The position numbers and the translations under genes are program-made. The notes below the pieces were generated by a model that was not told the DNA's origin, made no database searches, and worked only from the letters and a program-made list of their open reading frames with translations. Source: Actinomycetota bacterium (GTDB taxonomy: Bacteria > Actinomycetota > Thermoleophilia > Solirubrobacterales > Solirubrobacteraceae). From it: a stretch of 49,905 bases of DNA. Below are positions 36,346 to 49,905 of the stretch, in pieces; within the stretch, counting starts at the first letter, position 1; each line of letters begins with the position of its first letter. Where the stretch lies: NCBI GenBank assembly GCA_005888335.1, contig VAWY01000132.1, forward strand, positions 1-49,905, written 5' to 3'.

Positions 36346-36362
36346 CGGCGGACAATCCGCCG
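36346..36362. repeat. Intergenic hairpin with CGGCGGA stem
   Basis: CGGCGGA-CAA-TCCGCCG, a 7-bp perfect stem. The same stem (with a one-base loop) occurs in each 54-bp repeat at 46861-47022. It sits between the nuclease gene and the Arg-rich gene. Confidence 0.4.
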
Positions 36363-37705: not shown

Positions 37706-37793
37706 GTGGCGCTCCGCCCGCTTTGGTGTGGCGGGTCGCGGCCGGGTCTGTGGCGCTCCGCCCGCTTGGGTGTGGCGGGTCGCGGCCGGGTCT
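37706..37793. repeat. 44-bp tandem direct repeat, two copies
   Basis: Copies at 37706-37749 and 37750-37793 begin GTGGCGCTCCGCCCGCTT and end GCGGCCGGGTCT. They differ by one base, and a third start (GTGGCACTG) follows. The unit length is not a multiple of three, fitting a non-coding array. Confidence 0.85.
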
Positions 37794-37830
37794 GTGGCAC
37801 TGAGGGGAAGCGGCCTGGTCTGCGCCCGTG

Positions 37831-38001
37831 CCGAGCGGCAACGCGCCAGCCGCGGTGACCCGGACTCACGAGTGATCGATTGACCGCCTATTTCGCGGTC
37901 GATCGCTCTCTCGACTGCGGCCGAGCGGCAACGCGCCCGCCGCGGGACCCGGACTGACGAGTGTCGGATTGAGCCCCGATATGGGGCCCAATCCGACACT
38001 C
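37831..38001. repeat. Two adjacent hairpin units with conserved left flank
   Basis: Units start at 37831 and 37921 with the shared sequence CCGAGCGGCAACGCGCC and continue near-identically to ACGAGTG. Each then forms a different hairpin. Unit 1: arms 37872-37887 and 37895-37910, loop CTATTTC, 13 of 16 pairs including one G-T. Unit 2: arms 37959-37977 and 37983-38001, loop GATAT, 18 of 19 pairs. No T-run follows either. Possible bidirectional terminators or a palindromic repeat family. Confidence 0.8.
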
Positions 38002-38157
38002 GATCTCACCAAGCGCGCCAACCGCCCGCGAGAGAGGCGCGCGGAGCGCGCTCGACAGGTGCGGTCACAAGGTCAAACCGCTCCTTCCCCTCGGTGCCAT
38101 CCGACCGCGCCACCGCCCGCCACGAACGCCCGAGCGGAGCGCAGACAGAAACGCGAC

Positions 38158-43864: not shown

Positions 43865-46072
43865 GTGCCCCGGCGCGTCACGTACTCGCGCAACGTCACG
43901 CTCTCGCTGTCGCGGACGTGCCGCTGCTACTGCAAGTACTGCTCGTTCGCGACCCACCAGGCGCACCTGCACGAGCCCGAGGAGGTCCTGGCGCTGCTCG
44001 ACCGGGCGAAGCGGCGCGGGGTCAAGGAGCTGCTCGTGCTCACAGGCGAGGCTCCCGATGAGCACGCCGGGGTGCGCGAGCGGCTGAAGGCGCTGGGCTT
44101 CGACGACTTTGTCGGCTACGTGGCGTGGTGCTGCGAGCGCGCGCTCGAGCGCGGGCTGCTGCCGCACACCAACCTCGGCGTGCTCGACCGCGCGCAGCTC
44201 GCGAGGCTGCGCGAGGTGACCGCGTCGCAGGGGCTCATGCTCGAGTCGGTCAACCCTGACCTCGTCGTCCATCAGGGCTCGCCGACCAAGCACCCGGCGG
44301 CGCGGCTGGAGTTCCTCAGGGCGGCGGGGGAGCTGCGCATCCCGTTCACGAGCGGGATCCTCGTCGGGATCGGCGAGTCCGAGGACGACCGGATGGCGTC
44401 GCTGGAGGCGCTCGCCGCGGTGCACGCCGAGTTCGGGCACGTGCAGGAGGTGATCCTGCAGAACTACGTGCCGCACCGGCGCTACTACGGCGAGGAGCCG
44501 GCGGAGATCGCCACCGAGGCGGCCGAGGCCTACTGGCGCACCGGGGTCGGCGCCCCGCCCGAGCTCGAGCGGCCGGCGTGGGCGACCGACGTGACCGTCT
44601 CCGACATGGAGCGTCTGATCGCCGAGTGCCGGCGGCTGATGCCCGACGTCGGGGTCCAGGTGCCGCCGAACCTGGCCGACTGGTGGCCGCGGCTGGTGCG
44701 TGCGGGCGCCAGCGACCTCGGTGGGCTGTCGGCGAACGGCGACCACATCTCGCCCGAGCACCCGTTCCCGTCGCCGCACCAGGTGCGCAAGCGGCTGGCG
44801 CCCGAGGGCTTCGCGCTGACCGAGCGCCTGTGTGTCTACCCGCAGTACATCGCGCCGGAGTGGCTTGGCCAGGGCGTGCTCGACGTGATCAAGCGCGAGT
44901 TCTGGTCGTTCATCCCGCGCCGCGGCTCGGGGCGCCGCGAGGAGCGGCCGATCCGCCGCGAGCTGGTGGGCGCGGCGATCGCCAAGGCCCGCGACGGCGC
45001 GTGGCTGGAGCCCGACGAGCTCACGGCGCTGTTCGGCGAGACGCGCCCGGAGGCGATCGAGGACATGCGCCAGGCCGCCGACGAGCTGCGCGCCGAGCTG
45101 GCCGGCGAGAGGGTGACCTACGTCGTCAACCGCAACATCAACGTCTCGAACATCTGCGTTGTCGGGTGCGCGTTCTGCGGCTTCGGCCAGGGCAAGCGCT
45201 CGCCCGACGCCTACGAGCACGACGAGCCCGAGTTCCGCCGCCGCGTGCGCGAGGCGGTCGACTACGGCGCGACCGAGATCTGCATGCAGTCGGGCATCCA
45301 TCCCGACTGGGGGCTGGAGGACTACGAGCGCTGGCTGCGCGTGGCCAAGGACGAGGCGTCGCAGCTGCACCTGCACGCGTACAGCGCGATGGAGGTCGCG
45401 CACATGTGCGACGTCAGCGGCCTGCCGCCGATCGAGGTCTTCCGCCGCCTGGCCGACGCCGGGTTGGGCTCGACGCCGGGGACCGCGGCCGAGGTTCTCC
45501 ACGACGGGGTGCGCGAGCGCATCAGCCCGAACAAGCTGCCGGTCGGGCGCTGGGTCGAGATCATCGAGGCGTCGCACGCGGCGGGGCTGCGCTCGACGGT
45601 GACCGTGATGTTCGGGCACGTCGAGGAGCCGTGGGAGCTGGCCGAGCACATGCGCGTCGTGCGCGCGCTGCAGGAGCGCACCGGCGGCTTCACCGAGTTC
45701 GTGCCGCTGAGCTTCATCCCGTTCCACACGCTGCTGGGGCGCACGCACGGCATCGAGGAGATCTCCCGCGAGGAGAACCTCAAGCACACCGCGGTCTTCC
45801 GCCTCGCGCTGGGCAAGACGGTCCGCAACCTCCAGGCGAGCTGGGTCAAGATGGGCCTCGACGCGGCGACCGAGGCGCTGCGCTGGGGCGTCAACGACCT
45901 CGGCGGCACGCTGATGGAGGAGAACATCTCGCGCCTGGCGGGCTCCTACCACGGCGTCCGCCTCGACCCGCCCGAGCTCATCGCCGCCGCCCATCGCGCG
46001 CAGCGCCCGGCGGCGGAGCGCACGACGCTCTACGAGATCGTGCGCGAGCACCCGCTGCCCGTCGCCGCCTGA
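43865..46072 (+). CDS. fbiC: FO synthase FbiC (CofG-CofH fusion)
   Basis: A 735-residue protein with two radical-SAM domains that makes the deazaflavin FO of coenzyme F420 from tyrosine and a pyrimidine precursor. The N-terminal CofG half has its cluster at Cys19, Cys23, Cys26 (CRCYCKYC). The C-terminal CofH half has CVVGCAFC. The fused arrangement is the actinobacterial form; archaea have separate CofG and CofH. It is convergent with the cofE-cofC-cofD-npdG operon, 20 nt apart, completing the cluster. Confidence 0.96.
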   Translation: MPRRVTYSRNVTLSLSRTCRCYCKYCSFATHQAHLHEPEEVLALLDRAKRRGVKELLVLTGEAPDEHAGVRERLKALGFDDFVGYVAWCCERALERGLLPHTNLGVLDRAQLARLREVTASQGLMLESVNPDLVVHQGSPTKHPAARLEFLRAAGELRIPFTSGILVGIGESEDDRMASLEALAAVHAEFGHVQEVILQNYVPHRRYYGEEPAEIATEAAEAYWRTGVGAPPELERPAWATDVTVSDMERLIAECRRLMPDVGVQVPPNLADWWPRLVRAGASDLGGLSANGDHISPEHPFPSPHQVRKRLAPEGFALTERLCVYPQYIAPEWLGQGVLDVIKREFWSFIPRRGSGRREERPIRRELVGAAIAKARDGAWLEPDELTALFGETRPEAIEDMRQAADELRAELAGERVTYVVNRNINVSNICVVGCAFCGFGQGKRSPDAYEHDEPEFRRRVREAVDYGATEICMQSGIHPDWGLEDYERWLRVAKDEASQLHLHAYSAMEVAHMCDVSGLPPIEVFRRLADAGLGSTPGTAAEVLHDGVRERISPNKLPVGRWVEIIEASHAAGLRSTVTVMFGHVEEPWELAEHMRVVRALQERTGGFTEFVPLSFIPFHTLLGRTHGIEEISREENLKHTAVFRLALGKTVRNLQASWVKMGLDAATEALRWGVNDLGGTLMEENISRLAGSYHGVRLDPPELIAAAHRAQRPAAERTTLYEIVREHPLPVAA

Positions 46073-46092
46073 GCGCGGACGGCCTCCTAGGC

Positions 46093-46836
46093 TTAGGCGA
46101 AGAGGTCCTCGGCCGGGTCGCGCAGCAGCGCGGCCACGCCGGGCCCGTCGTCGCCGGTCACATGACGCTCGAGCCCGCGCAGGACGACGACCGGCTCGCG
46201 CGAGTCCTTGGCCCGCGTGAGATCGGCAGCCGCCGCCGCTTCGTCGGCGATGGCGATCGCCGTCGCGTGCAGCTCGCGGCCGTGGGCGTCGGTGCGCCCG
46301 CGCCAGTCGTCGACGGATACCAGGCCGGCGATGCCGATGGCCACCTCGCACTGGCCGCGCCGCCATGCGCGCCCGAAGGAGTCCGTGATGATCACCGCCG
46401 GCCGCGCCCCGGCGCGCTCGGCCAGCGCGGCGCGCAGCCCGCGCGCCGAGTGGTCGGGGTCGCGGGGGAGGACGACGAGCGCGTCGGGCCGCCCCGCGTT
46501 GGACGCGTCGACGCCGGCGTTGGCGCAGACGAAGCCGTGGCGCGTCCGGCAGATGATCACGCCCGGCCGCGACCGGACGATCTCGGCGGCCTCGTCGAGG
46601 ACGACCTGGATGTGGCGCGGATCCTTGCCGTGCAATGCGGCGAGCTCGAGGGCGCGATCGCCGGGCGCGACGCGGCTCAGAGCGACGACGCGCCCCTCGG
46701 CCTTGGAGACGACCTTGTGGGCGACCGCCAGCACGTCGCCGTCGCGCAGCGGCACGTCGAGGCCGGCGATCAGGGCGGCGAGGTCATCGCCCGGCCGCAC
46801 CTCGGGCAGCCCGCGGAGCGCGAGCGCCGTGATCAC
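46093..46836 (-). CDS. cofE: F420-0:L-glutamate ligase CofE (single-domain)
   Basis: A 247-residue GTP-dependent gamma-glutamyl ligase that adds glutamates to F420-0. Family blocks are HKVVSKAEGRVV, RTRHGFVCANAGVDASN, VIITDSFGRAWRRGQ and IGIAGLVSVDDWRG. It is the single-domain form: the C-terminal nitroreductase-like domain of actinobacterial FbiB, which reduces dehydro-F420-0, is absent. The GTG start overlaps the stop of the repeat ORF as GTGA. Confidence 0.94.
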   Translation of the reverse strand: MITALALRGLPEVRPGDDLAALIAGLDVPLRDGDVLAVAHKVVSKAEGRVVALSRVAPGDRALELAALHGKDPRHIQVVLDEAAEIVRSRPGVIICRTRHGFVCANAGVDASNAGRPDALVVLPRDPDHSARGLRAALAERAGARPAVIITDSFGRAWRRGQCEVAIGIAGLVSVDDWRGRTDAHGRELHATAIAIADEAAAAADLTRAKDSREPVVVLRGLERHVTGDDGPGVAALLRDPAEDLFA

Positions 46837-47084
46837 GAGTTCGCCTGCGAACTCGCAAGCGACCGCGAGCCGTGGCCGGCGGAGTCCGCCGCGGCGCTAC
46901 GCGAGCGGTCGCCCGACCGCGAGCCGTGGCCGGCGGAGTCCGCCGCGGCGCTACGCGAGCGGTCGCCCGACCGCGAGCCGTGGCCGGCGGAGTCCGCCGC
47001 GGCGCTACGCGAGCGGTCGCCCGACCGCGAGCCATCGCCGACAAGGGGCGCGGCGGCGACGCTCCGCGAGCGTCCGCCGATCAC
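46833..47084 (-). CDS. Putative Ser/Arg-repeat protein inside the cof operon (83 aa)
   Basis: An 83-codon frame whose GTG overlaps the cofC stop (GTGA) and whose TGA overlaps the cofE GTG (GTGA), so it fills the gap with perfect coupling geometry. It is built from three identical 18-residue units, GDRSRSAAADSAGHGSRS, with short unique ends (MIGGRSRSVAAAPLVGDG; LASSQANS). Third positions are about 90% G/C in this frame, higher than in the alternative frames. The predicted product is disordered and rich in Ser, Arg, Ala and Gly. Alternatively the DNA is a palindromic repeat array that happens to stay open. Confidence 0.5.
   Translation of the reverse strand: MIGGRSRSVAAAPLVGDGSRSGDRSRSAAADSAGHGSRSGDRSRSAAADSAGHGSRSGDRSRSAAADSAGHGSRSLASSQANS
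46861..47022. repeat. 54-bp tandem repeat, three perfect copies plus partial
   Basis: Copies at 46861-46914, 46915-46968 and 46969-47022 are identical; a diverged partial follows at 47023. Each unit contains two short palindromes, CGGCGGA-G-TCCGCCG and (across the junction) GCGGTCG-CC-CGACCGC. The 54-nt period keeps reading frame. Perfect identity indicates recent expansion. Confidence 0.95.
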
Positions 47085-47719
47085 GACTGGGCGGTCGCGG
47101 CCGCCAGCGCCGCCGCGGTGCGCGGGCCGAGCCGGCCCTCGGCGCGCAGGGCGGCGAGGTCATCGGGCGTGTCGACGTCGAGCGCGAGCGCGGGGACGTC
47201 GACGACCGCGTGCTCGAGCCCGGCGGCCTCGGCCGCGGTCTCGTGGCGGCGCCGGCTGCCCGGCCCGAACGCCGGCGCGATCGCCCCGGGCGGCGTGAGC
47301 AGCAGCGCGTTGGTCCCGGTGCCGTGGCGGTCCGGCACGACGACCACGGGCTCGCCGCGCCCGAGCAGCGCCTCGAGGTCGCCCGCTTGCAGGCAGGGCG
47401 TGTCGCCGGGCACCAGCAGCGCGCGCTGCGCGCCGATCTCGCGCGCCGCCAGGACGCCGACCGCCGCGGCGGCGCTCTGCCCGGCCTCGTCGCGGTCCGC
47501 GACCACGTGCGCGCCGCACGAGACCGCCTGCTCGGCCACGGCGGGCTCGCCGGTGACGACGACGACGCGCGCGAAGGCCTCGAAGCCGCACAGCACCTCG
47601 AGGACGTCGGCGGCCATCGCCGCCGCCAGCTGCTGGCGCGCGCCGTCCGGGAGCGCCCCGCGCAGCCGCTGCTTCGCGCGGGCGAAGCGCTTGACCGGAA
47701 GCACCGCGACCGTGCGCAT
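47081..47719 (-). CDS. cofC: CofC/FbiD guanylyltransferase of F420 synthesis
   Basis: A 212-residue nucleotidyltransferase that activates 2-phospholactate or phosphoenolpyruvate with GTP for F420 assembly. It shows the MobA-like start VAVLPVKRFARAKQRL, 'GQSAAAAVG', the metal/nucleotide motif LLVPGDTPCL and the late DVDTPDDLAAL. In actinobacteria the substrate is thought to be phosphoenolpyruvate, yielding dehydro-F420-0; which one applies here is not readable. It is 6 nt after cofD. Confidence 0.93.
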   Translation of the reverse strand: MRTVAVLPVKRFARAKQRLRGALPDGARQQLAAAMAADVLEVLCGFEAFARVVVVTGEPAVAEQAVSCGAHVVADRDEAGQSAAAAVGVLAAREIGAQRALLVPGDTPCLQAGDLEALLGRGEPVVVVPDRHGTGTNALLLTPPGAIAPAFGPGSRRRHETAAEAAGLEHAVVDVPALALDVDTPDDLAALRAEGRLGPRTAAALAAATAQS

Positions 47720-47725
47720 CGCGCG

Positions 47726-48637
47726 TCAGGCTAGACCCCGGGTGAAGCGCAGCGTCTCGCGGGCCACGCGCGCGCGGGCGTCGGGGTCGTCCATGAGCGT
47801 CGCGGTCACCAGCGCCGGCACCGCCGCCTCGACGCTCTCCTCGTCGCACACGAGCCCGTCGAGCACGTCGCCGTAGTACGCGGCGACGCCCCCGGCGTCG
47901 GCGAGGACGCCCGCCCAGCGCAGGAAGGGCTCGGTCGGGCCCTTGACCACCTCGCCGCCGACGAAGGGCGACACCGCGACGACCGGCGCGCGGGCCTCGC
48001 GCAGGGCGTCGCGCAGCCCCCCGACCGCGAGGATCGGCCCGATCGAGGCGACGGGGTTGGACGGCCCGATGACAATCGCGTCGGCCGCGTCGATGGCCTC
48101 GAGCACCGCCTCCGTCGGCCGCGCCGCCTGCGCGCCGCGGAACTCGACGCCCTCGACGGGCCCGGCGGCGCGCTCGCGGATCATGAACTCCTGGAACGGG
48201 CGCCAGGCGCCGCCGGTCATCACAGCGGTGCGCACGGGCGCGTCGGTCATCGGCAGCACGCGCGCGCGCACGCCGAGCGCGGCCGCACCCTCGGCCAGCG
48301 CCTGCGTCGGCGTTGCGCCCTCGGCCAGCCGGCGCGCCCGGCGCAGGCACCAGGCGAGGTCGCGGTCGCCGAGGTTGAACCAGACGTCGTCGCCGAGCGC
48401 GCGCAGCCCCTCCATCACCGCGAACGTGTCGCCGCGCAGCCCCCAGCCGCGCTCGTCGATCACGTCGGCCAGCCAGAACGTGACGAGGTCGGGGTCGGGC
48501 GAGACGTGCGCGCCGTGGATCTCGACGTCGTCGCCGGTGTTGGCGATCACGGTCAGCGCGTCGCCCGCGATGTCGAGCATCCCGCGGGCGAGCTTGGCGC
48601 CGCCGGTCCCGCCGGCGAGCACGACTATTCCGGCCAC
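47726..48637 (-). CDS. cofD: CofD/FbiA 2-phospho-L-lactate (or enolpyruvyl) transferase
   Basis: A 303-residue transferase that joins the activated three-carbon unit to FO. Hallmarks are LAGGTGGAKLARG, VIANTGDDVEIHG, WFNLGDRDLAWCL and VIGPSNPVASIGPIL. It starts with GTG inside the last codons of npdG (13-nt overlap). The set npdG-cofD-cofC-ORF-cofE reads as one operon. Confidence 0.95.
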   Translation of the reverse strand: MAGIVVLAGGTGGAKLARGMLDIAGDALTVIANTGDDVEIHGAHVSPDPDLVTFWLADVIDERGWGLRGDTFAVMEGLRALGDDVWFNLGDRDLAWCLRRARRLAEGATPTQALAEGAAALGVRARVLPMTDAPVRTAVMTGGAWRPFQEFMIRERAAGPVEGVEFRGAQAARPTEAVLEAIDAADAIVIGPSNPVASIGPILAVGGLRDALREARAPVVAVSPFVGGEVVKGPTEPFLRWAGVLADAGGVAAYYGDVLDGLVCDEESVEAAVPALVTATLMDDPDARARVARETLRFTRGLA

Positions 48638-49293
48638 AGGTCAGCGGGCAGGCCGGTGAGCCTGATCCCCGAGTGCGTCTTGTAGCGCGCGTTGACGCCG
48701 ATCAGCAGCGCGGTGATCGACTCGACGATGCGCGCCTGCTCGAGCCGGCCGGCGTCGACCGGCCGCAGCCCCTCGATGCGCGCGATCAGCGCGGCGACCT
48801 CGCGCTTGTCGGCCTTGCGGTCGCCGCAGATCAGGACGTCCTCGTCGAGCGGCGCGTCGAGGTCGGCGAGCGTGGGGGCGCCCACCGTGTGCAGGGCGGC
48901 GACCACGCGCACGCCGTCGGGCGCCATCTCGGCGGCCTGTTGCGCGGCCGAGCCCTGCCAGACCCCGAGCGTCCGTGTCGCCCGGCCGCTCACCGCGGCG
49001 GCGAGCGGCACCGTGCAGTCGACGAGGATCTGCCCCTCGCGCAGCGCGCCCTTGAGGTTGGTCAGCGTCTCGGACTGCGAGCGAAAGGGGACCGTGAGCA
49101 CGACGATCGGCGCCTCGCGCGCGGCGTCGGCGTTCTCGCGGCCCTCCTGCGCGCCGGTGCGCTGCGCCGCCTCACGCGCCCGGCCGGCGTCGCGCGAGCC
49201 GATGATGACCGGCACGCCGACGCGCGACCAGCGCATCGCCAGGCCAAAGCCGATGTTGCCGGTGCCGCCGATGATCGCCACTGGGTCGGCCAT
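48625..49293 (-). CDS. npdG: F420-dependent NADP+ oxidoreductase (NpdG/Fno)
   Basis: A 222-residue Rossmann protein exchanging hydride between F420H2 and NADP+. The dinucleotide motif is IIGGTGNIGFGLA and the phosphate-binding IIGSRDAGRA supports NADP. Later blocks are LTVPFRSQ, LVDCTVPL and VRVVAALHTVGAPTLADLD. It links the F420 pool to NADPH and is the first gene of the operon. The ATG at 49293 gives the canonical N-terminus. Confidence 0.93.
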   Translation of the reverse strand: MADPVAIIGGTGNIGFGLAMRWSRVGVPVIIGSRDAGRAREAAQRTGAQEGRENADAAREAPIVVLTVPFRSQSETLTNLKGALREGQILVDCTVPLAAAVSGRATRTLGVWQGSAAQQAAEMAPDGVRVVAALHTVGAPTLADLDAPLDEDVLICGDRKADKREVAALIARIEGLRPVDAGRLEQARIVESITALLIGVNARYKTHSGIRLTGLPADLWPE

Positions 49294-49319
49294 GAAGGCG
49301 GGCGAGTCTGTCACAGCCG

Positions 49320-49340
49320 GCCGGACGAAGGCCGTCCGGC
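49320..49340. repeat. Short hairpin between npdG and the thioesterase gene
   Basis: GCCGGAC-GAAGGCC-GTCCGGC, a 7-bp perfect stem in the 96-nt divergent promoter region. It may be an operator or simple GC-rich intergenic palindrome. Confidence 0.35.
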
Positions 49341-49389
49341 GCAAGGGCGCCCGCTGGACGCAGGGCCGCCGTGCTATCCATGACGGTCG

Positions 49390-49740
49390 ATGAGCGACTC
49401 CCGCGAGACCGAGTTCACCGTCGAGGGCGATCTGCTGACCGATGTCGGCGGGACCATCCCGGTCAAGGTGCTCTCGACGCCCGGGATGATCGGCATGATG
49501 GAGCGCACCGCCGCGATGCTCGCGCTCGAGAAGCTCCCCGACGGGAAGGCGACCGTCGGCTTCGAGGTCTGCGTCAAGCACGTGGCGGGCGCCGTCGAGG
49601 GCGCACGGTGCGTCGCGCGCGCGACGCTGCGCGAGGTCGTCGACGGCCGCAAGTACAGGTTCGACGTCGCGGTCCTCGAGGGCGAGCGCACGATCGGCGT
49701 CGGCACCCATGAGCGGCGCGTGGTGCAGCGTGCTGCCTGA
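49390..49740 (+). CDS. FlK-like hot-dog acyl-CoA thioesterase
   Basis: A 116-residue hot-dog thioesterase related to fluoroacetyl-CoA thioesterase FlK. The FlK catalytic Thr42, Glu50 and His76 correspond to Thr30 (VLSTPGMI), Glu38 (MMERTAAM) and His64 (CVKHVAGA), with identical spacing of 8 and 26 residues. Most such proteins outside fluoroacetate producers act on ordinary small acyl-CoAs. It precedes and overlaps an HMG-CoA lyase gene, which suggests acyl-CoA or leucine catabolism. Confidence 0.85.
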   Translation: MSDSRETEFTVEGDLLTDVGGTIPVKVLSTPGMIGMMERTAAMLALEKLPDGKATVGFEVCVKHVAGAVEGARCVARATLREVVDGRKYRFDVAVLEGERTIGVGTHERRVVQRAA

Positions 49741-49905
49741 CCGGGTGCGCATCCGCGAGGTCGGTCCGCGCGACGGCTTCCAGAACGAGCCCGAGGTCAT
49801 CGCGACCGAGGACAAGATCCGGCTCGTCGAGCTGCTCGCGCGCACCGGCCTGAAGCGCCTGGAGGTCACGAGCTTCGTGCGCGCCGACGTCATCCCGCAG
49901 CTCGC
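49730..49905 (+). CDS. Hydroxymethylglutaryl-CoA lyase, N-terminal part (runs off the window)
   Basis: The first 58 codons of an HMG-CoA lyase-like protein. After the start come VRIREVGPRDGFQNE, with the catalytic Arg-Asp pair in PRDG, then GLKRLEVTSFVRADVIPQLA (core LEVTSF), matching the DRE-TIM metallolyase barrel start. The enzyme cleaves HMG-CoA to acetyl-CoA and acetoacetate at the end of leucine breakdown. The start may be GTG 49730, overlapping the thioesterase stop, or ATG 49709 in the same frame. The rest lies beyond the window. Confidence 0.85.
   Translation, partial: MLPDRVRIREVGPRDGFQNEPEVIATEDKIRLVELLARTGLKRLEVTSFVRADVIPQL

Follow-up and report, generated by a model that had tools for sequence, protein, structure and literature searches.

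Repetitive elements at gene junctions

The unit number of mycobacterial interspersed repetitive units (MIRUs) varies between strains, and Rickettsia palindromic elements insert inside genes, keep the frame, and become part of the host protein. According to PMC12548453, which credits the description to Supply et al. 1997, MIRUs are short, repetitive, and apparently mobile elements inserted at start codons, where an internal ORF spaced at −4 nt provides coupling to the target gene, probably with a minimal effect on target expression. REP elements, according to PMC3733652, are palindromes of 20–40 bp that occur in high copy number between co-directional genes, some of them thought to be mobilised; their families are GTAG- or CGTC-tagged at the foot of the stem and have an associated RAYT transposase. 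PARCELs, according to PMC2996958, are tandem coding repeats of variable number with dyad symmetry and are thought to spread between and within genomes; they specify an amphipathic motif of 25 residues, located in ORFs of which many have membrane-targeting sequences. Among the literature titles and openings of abstracts listed, we found no MIRU-like element outside mycobacteria, and PARCELs were the nearest.

In this study, we analyzed an insert of 248 bp between cofC and cofE in a stretch of 49,905 nucleotides (hereafter the window, meaning the whole stretch of DNA analyzed). We consider it probable that the insert is a MIRU-like insertion element that bridges the stop codon of cofC and the start codon of cofE. 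As in MIRUs, the insert lies at an NTGA stop/start overlap, with GTGA at both ends and coupling predicted from sequence, and an internal ORF of 83 codons spans the distance between the left and right GTGA sites. The unit number also differs among the only three forms available, being four in the window, one in the fit to the database relative P0004 (a read-through), and two in the relative P0001. The insert differs from MIRUs in its units, which are 54 and 57 bp long, and in its host, which groups with Solirubrobacterales by CofC. A search with the insert matched 0 of 201 genomes from the family of the Rhodococcus locus G816 (E ≤ 1e-6; three candidates scored per listed genome, MIRU carriers perhaps not being included), an insensitive test of sequence kinship with MIRUs. 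We liken the element to MIRUs by description only and do not file it as one. The comparison with PARCELs is likewise by description: both have tandem repeats in variable number and DNA with dyad symmetry, but the units here encode 18–19 residues rich in Ser, Arg, Gly, and Ala and form a bridging frame. Rickettsia palindromic elements share palindromic repeats that keep reading frames at insertion, whereas the element here lies between genes and has a frame of its own.

Architecture of the cofC-cofE insert

On the minus strand, the genes are arranged in the order cofD, cofC, repeat frame, and cofE, and a cofG-cofH fusion (fbiC-like) on the plus strand converges on cofE. The ends of the fbiC-like gene and cofE are ~20 bp apart (46072-46093). 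NCBIfam equivalog models, all above cut-off, provided the identities of cofE, cofC, and cofD. The features of the locus are as follows.

46093..46836, minus strand: cofE, coenzyme F420-0:L-glutamate ligase, downstream neighbour (TIGR01916)
47081..47719, minus strand: cofC, 2-phospho-L-lactate guanylyltransferase, upstream neighbour (TIGR03552)
47726..48637, minus strand: cofD, 2-phospho-L-lactate transferase, operon context (TIGR01819)
46833..47084, minus strand: element ORF from GTG to TGA, 252 nt (83 codons and TGA), spanning the gap between cofC and cofE
47079..47086, minus strand: direct repeat TCGTGATC (8 bp) at the left end, in which GTGA is the cofC stop and the element ORF start
46831..46838, minus strand: direct repeat TCGTGATC (8 bp) at the right end, in which GTGA is the element ORF stop and the cofE start
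47022..47078, minus strand: first unit, 57 bp (GGRSRSVAAAPLVGDGSRS), of the 19-codon type that also occurs twice in P0001
47058..47074, minus strand: hairpin GACGCTC-GCG-GAGCGTC within the first (57-bp) unit
46860..47021, minus strand: three exact copies of the 54-bp unit (GDRSRSAAADSAGHGSRS), with two palindromes per copy
46833..46859, minus strand: tail module of 27 nt (LASSQANS and stop), identical in P0001
46836-46855: hairpin with a 9-bp stem, CGAGTTCGCAGGCGAACTCG, inside the tail module
36346-36362: hairpin CGGCGGA-CAA-TCCGCCG, whose stem is one palindrome of each 54-bp unit

Read in codon phase, the element frame consists of GTG ATC, one 57-bp unit, three 54-bp units, and the 27-nt tail. 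TRF placed the array at 46860-47040, with a period of 54, 3.4 copies, and 98% matches. The first-pass annotation had described three exact 54-bp units between cofC and cofE in a minus-strand frame (47084..46833) that overlaps the cofC stop and the cofE start as GTGA, and all of this was borne out, as were its two palindromes per unit, which are perfect, and its high G/C third positions (G+C of 0.89 at the third positions of the frame). The shared stem that it had pointed out is also real: CGGCGGA/TCCGCCG occurs in three copies in the units and once elsewhere in the window, at 36346-36362, compared with an average of 0.05 in whole-window shuffles. The element as a whole occurs once in the 49.9-kb window.

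The two perfect palindromes of each unit, the 9-bp-stem hairpin of the tail, and the return of the CGGCGGA stem at 36346-36362 would also suit a noncoding palindromic array of the REP kind, in which hairpins in DNA or RNA are kept and the bridging frame is incidental. The insert resembles REP elements in having small palindromes between co-directional genes. By contrast, the array here is framed exactly by stop/start overlaps at both ends and keeps a reading frame.

Direct repeat at the two junctions

Both GTGA junctions lie within one 8-bp word, TCGTGATC, whose copies are 248 bp apart, a feature absent from the first-pass annotation. With GTGA given at both ends, the chance of four further matching bases is ~0.009 at a G+C of 0.738. 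We also ran a permissive scan for small frames delimited by two successive NTGA sites and flanked by long open frames, which covered 165 sequences (1.30 Mb, some loci overlapping) and returned 94 NTGA-ORF-NTGA arrangements. An 8-bp flanking direct repeat with the same first base was present in two of the 94 (the element here and locus L106), and only the element here had an exact internal repeat of more than 12 nt. Taken alone, the 8-bp repeat, at about 1 to 2 in 100, is suggestive and short of proof for a duplication.

We interpret the direct repeat as a putative target-site duplication, and the 248-bp insert has probably duplicated an ancestral stop/start overlap. If the target site was duplicated, both GTGA overlaps would arise at once, so that only an insert length suiting the frame (one in three) and the open frame would be left to explain. 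Because the same 8 bp occur at both junctions, the double GTGA fit carries less weight than it seems to and can be explained more simply than by an independent gene. An in-frame repeat family, which had been set aside as the rival explanation in the first-pass annotation, now appears to be the better account, with the double fit probably reflecting the duplicated target site.

Coding potential of the bridging frame

Of the six reading frames across the insert, five are open. An open frame is therefore weak evidence for coding, and coding by the open frame alone was rejected; the same count suits the REP-kind array. With the insert length kept in frame, module-wise shuffles stayed open in 83% of cases. 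The codon usage of the element frame scored −0.14 per codon when one 54-bp copy was counted. The four F420 genes, on which the table was also trained, scored +0.57 to +0.72, and their wrong frames scored −0.79 to −1.68. The plus-strand mirror frame scored −0.01, slightly above the element frame.

These values bear on the reading of the frame as a true small gene, in which a repeat protein rich in Ser, Arg, and Gly, with coupling to both neighbours, is kept for its product. The GTGA coupling arrangement at both ends and the codon-usage score, which is the best on the minus strand, speak for this reading, and the 57-bp unit differs from the 54-bp unit at 3, 4, and 7 sites at codon positions 1, 2, and 3, respectively, which points the same way with too few sites to decide. 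Against it, codon usage is under that of the flanking genes and that of the mirror frame, and neither Pfam nor NCBIfam gave a match for the element frame. The earlier argument for translation of an 83-residue protein thus found partial support: the architecture that it described held, but an open frame is expected in most shuffles, the codon usage is gene-like only in part, and no selection on the peptide was evident. From its architecture, translation of the element frame is plausible.

The predicted RNA fold of the insert was no stronger than that of shuffles (z = −0.86; 36 of 200 shuffles as good or better). RNA structure as a selected trait was rejected, and this result counts against a REP-kind array as well. 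At gathering thresholds, Rfam detected no RNA family in the whole window.

Relatives of the insert in sequence databases

A protein search of 5.8 billion sequences found a sole relative of the 83-residue frame, P0001 (E = 9.9e-5), a gene-called protein of 48 amino acids with 72% identity over 53% of the query. P0001 consists of MI, two 19-residue units ending in GDGSRS, and LASSQANS, and it keeps the ORF start, two units of the 57-bp type, and the tail GSRSLASSQANS unchanged. When P0001 and the window frame were used together as an alignment, a further protein search added only P0002 (E = 8.7). The contig of P0001 is 538 bp long, which leaves at least one flank of at least 195 bp; had P0001 been located between cofC and cofE, a CofC or CofE fragment about 65 residues long might therefore be expected. 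A query made of the CofC end fused to the CofE start gave 195 matches, and none of the CofC or CofE fragments with a stated contig size among the best 120 of the 195, which were those considered, belonged to a 538-bp contig (the entries of one source state no size). These results hint that P0001 is located at a gene pair other than cofC/cofE; alternatively, the flanking frame may be uncalled.

P0004 is a wrong-frame gene call that extends from the end of cofC across the junction into cofE in a near relative. It aligned best to the window from which all three 54-bp units were removed (score 495), with a single gap of 1 residue in the cofC end; the scores with one, two, and three 54-bp units were 475, 457, and 439, respectively, and that of the empty site was 282. 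This best fit suggests that the near relative from which P0004 derives carries the element at the same position with a single unit. The final residues of P0004 are unmatched to CofE and its source gives no contig, so that the sequence is not above doubt. The difference between the window and P0004 is 162 bp, or 54 codons, and the element length deduced from P0004 would be 86 bp, compared with 248 bp in the window, both being 2 mod 3. The first-pass annotation had named copy number varying in whole units with the frame kept as support for coding, and in this tiny sample P0004 and P0001 do appear to vary in unit number by whole codons.

Since the tail is identical in P0001 and, in a second reading frame, in P0004, it is conserved at the DNA level, as would suit a REP-kind array. 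Units of 57 and 54 bp and element lengths of 248 and 86 bp, which all keep the frame, do not suit it. Weighing these points with those given above, we consider a REP-kind array unlikely.

The form in the near relative also bears on local slippage or duplication with no mobile element, in which the overlap would have been tandemly duplicated and the spacer would have grown by unit duplication. The 54-bp units are exact tandem copies, and at this junction the near relative appears to carry fewer of them, both in keeping with slippage. However, no exact stretch of the insert longer than ~14 bp recurs elsewhere in the window, the longest in common with cofE being a 12-mer, and P0001 has both ends and the unit type, with no 538-bp contig among the CofC and CofE fragments listed with a stated contig size (best 120 of 195).

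Three further database proteins span the junction. P0012, from a relative, aligned across it without gaps when exactly 248 bp of the window were left out, which supports the putative empty site, and P0006 preferred the empty form (347 versus 330), with one gap. Over the start of CofE, P0003 matches the window no less closely than P0004 does, and it is without the element. It fitted the element-bearing frame of the relative, with the units removed, at a score of 438 with gaps of 4 and 16 residues, compared with 331 for the empty site; from these scores, P0003 may represent a scar left by deletion or a short spacer of independent origin, and would then not be the simple empty site. P0005, P0008, and P0009 are CofC-like database proteins with internal deletions or a foreign N-terminus, possibly assembly chimeras; P0005 matches the CofC of the window outside its deletion.

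cofC-cofE junctions in related genomes

We examined 204 loci, comprising 74 from named contigs (not all of the same order), 30 from the order search, and 100 further regions picked from the order-search matches listed; that search gave a CofC match in 209 of 232 genomes. After loci without cofE on the stretch (18), with nonadjacent genes (19), with genes on opposite strands (2), and duplicates (16) were left out, 149 distinct junctions were obtained. The largest stop-to-start spacing among these was 79 nt, compared with 244 nt at the insert-bearing junction; three rows (L062, L068, and L203) had no sound spacing, with the CofC frame running on. The overlap took the form NTGA in 81 of the 149 junctions, a generous count that includes CTG as a start, and 20 of the 81 read NTGATC. 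The CofC tails were variable, with up to 178 nt between the last aligned CofC residue and cofE (L116). In seven stretches between the aligned CofC and CofE ends, chosen among the longest or most doubtful ones, no internal repeat exceeded 10 nt, and at most 10 bp were in common with the insert. The best CofC identity among the order-search matches listed was 62%; a close sister species therefore seems to be absent from the genomes examined.

None of the 149 related junctions has a frame comparable to that of the element, which weighs against a small gene kept for its product. The gene-called homologue P0001, 72% identical over 53% of the query, favors such a gene, but it is the one significant homologue in 5.8 billion proteins, and the length varies nearly threefold (83, 48, and a deduced 29 codons). 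On balance, we regard a true small gene as quite improbable.

Searches for dispersed copies

When the whole insert was searched against 15 related genomes (at most 40 candidates scored in each), all 15 gave some match at E ≤ 1, the best being 2.5e-5, and in 232 related genomes (3 candidates scored per listed genome), 13 gave a match at E ≤ 1e-5, the best being 1.4e-7 with 72% identity over ~150 bp. These matches were short or diffuse, typical of GC-rich DNA, and chance-like. The tail pattern with up to three mismatches was found in 0 of 232 genomes of the order, the core pattern in 0 of 396 genomes of the phylum, and the exact tail hairpin with any two loop bases in 0 of 264 loci. A two-sequence profile gave 17 matches of 18 to 23 bits in 399 genomes of the class, which were judged to be chance; two of them span most of the profile, each with an internal stop. 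Because only some candidates were scored per genome, the sequence searches are not strong negatives.

The phage records contained no match to the insert, and plasmids gave three weak matches only (E = 0.4, 0.8, and 1). Neither pattern was found in viral contigs, and the peptide pattern was present in 102 viral stretches, none of which encodes a relative. With no convincing match in these data, an origin from a phage, plasmid, or virus was rejected. Growth by local slippage gains from the lack of clear copies in the other genomes searched; with the content of the insert and P0001 set against it, we hold it to be very improbable.

Proposed mechanism and implications

The reading that we favor, a MIRU-like bridging element, can be put as a sequence of steps. 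A small repetitive element, presumably mobile, would have landed in the 4-nt cofC/cofE stop/start overlap, and the insertion would have duplicated the target TCGTGATC, leaving a GTGA overlap at each end. The 57- and 54-bp units, being multiples of three, form together with the fixed tail an open frame that extends between the two GTGA sites, and the 54-bp units may have expanded locally after insertion. Ribosomes ending cofC would reinitiate at the left GTG and read through the repeats to reach the cofE start at the right GTG. Through this coupling, the insertion would have little cost for cofE and would be tolerated, and the peptide would need no function.

Many operon insertions harm downstream genes. 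An element that reproduces the overlap at each of its ends and links them by a frame of its own could go almost unnoticed in an operon. We put forward, tentatively and as somewhat short of an even chance, that elements that target the stop/start overlaps of coupled genes, duplicate them, and bridge them with a frame of their own may occur beyond mycobacteria, here as an unrelated family in Solirubrobacterales whose codon-multiple units expand and shrink in frame, and that such hiding in operons may have arisen more than once. If true, a second, unrelated, nonmycobacterial example would make translational coupling as a target of selfish DNA testable, and it would be a caution for annotators, who could mistake bridging frames for genes.

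Other observations in the window

Two further tandem arrays are present in the window, at 37706-37798 (44-bp unit, 2.1 copies, 97% matches) and at 37830-38003 (89-bp unit, 1.9 copies, 79% matches). A small plus-strand ORF at 49390-49740 matched the Pfam family FlK, a fluoroacetyl-CoA-specific thioesterase (E = 3.1e-24). It is overlapped by a minus-strand ORF at 48625-49893, which contains an F420-dependent NADP oxidoreductase domain at residues 205-296.
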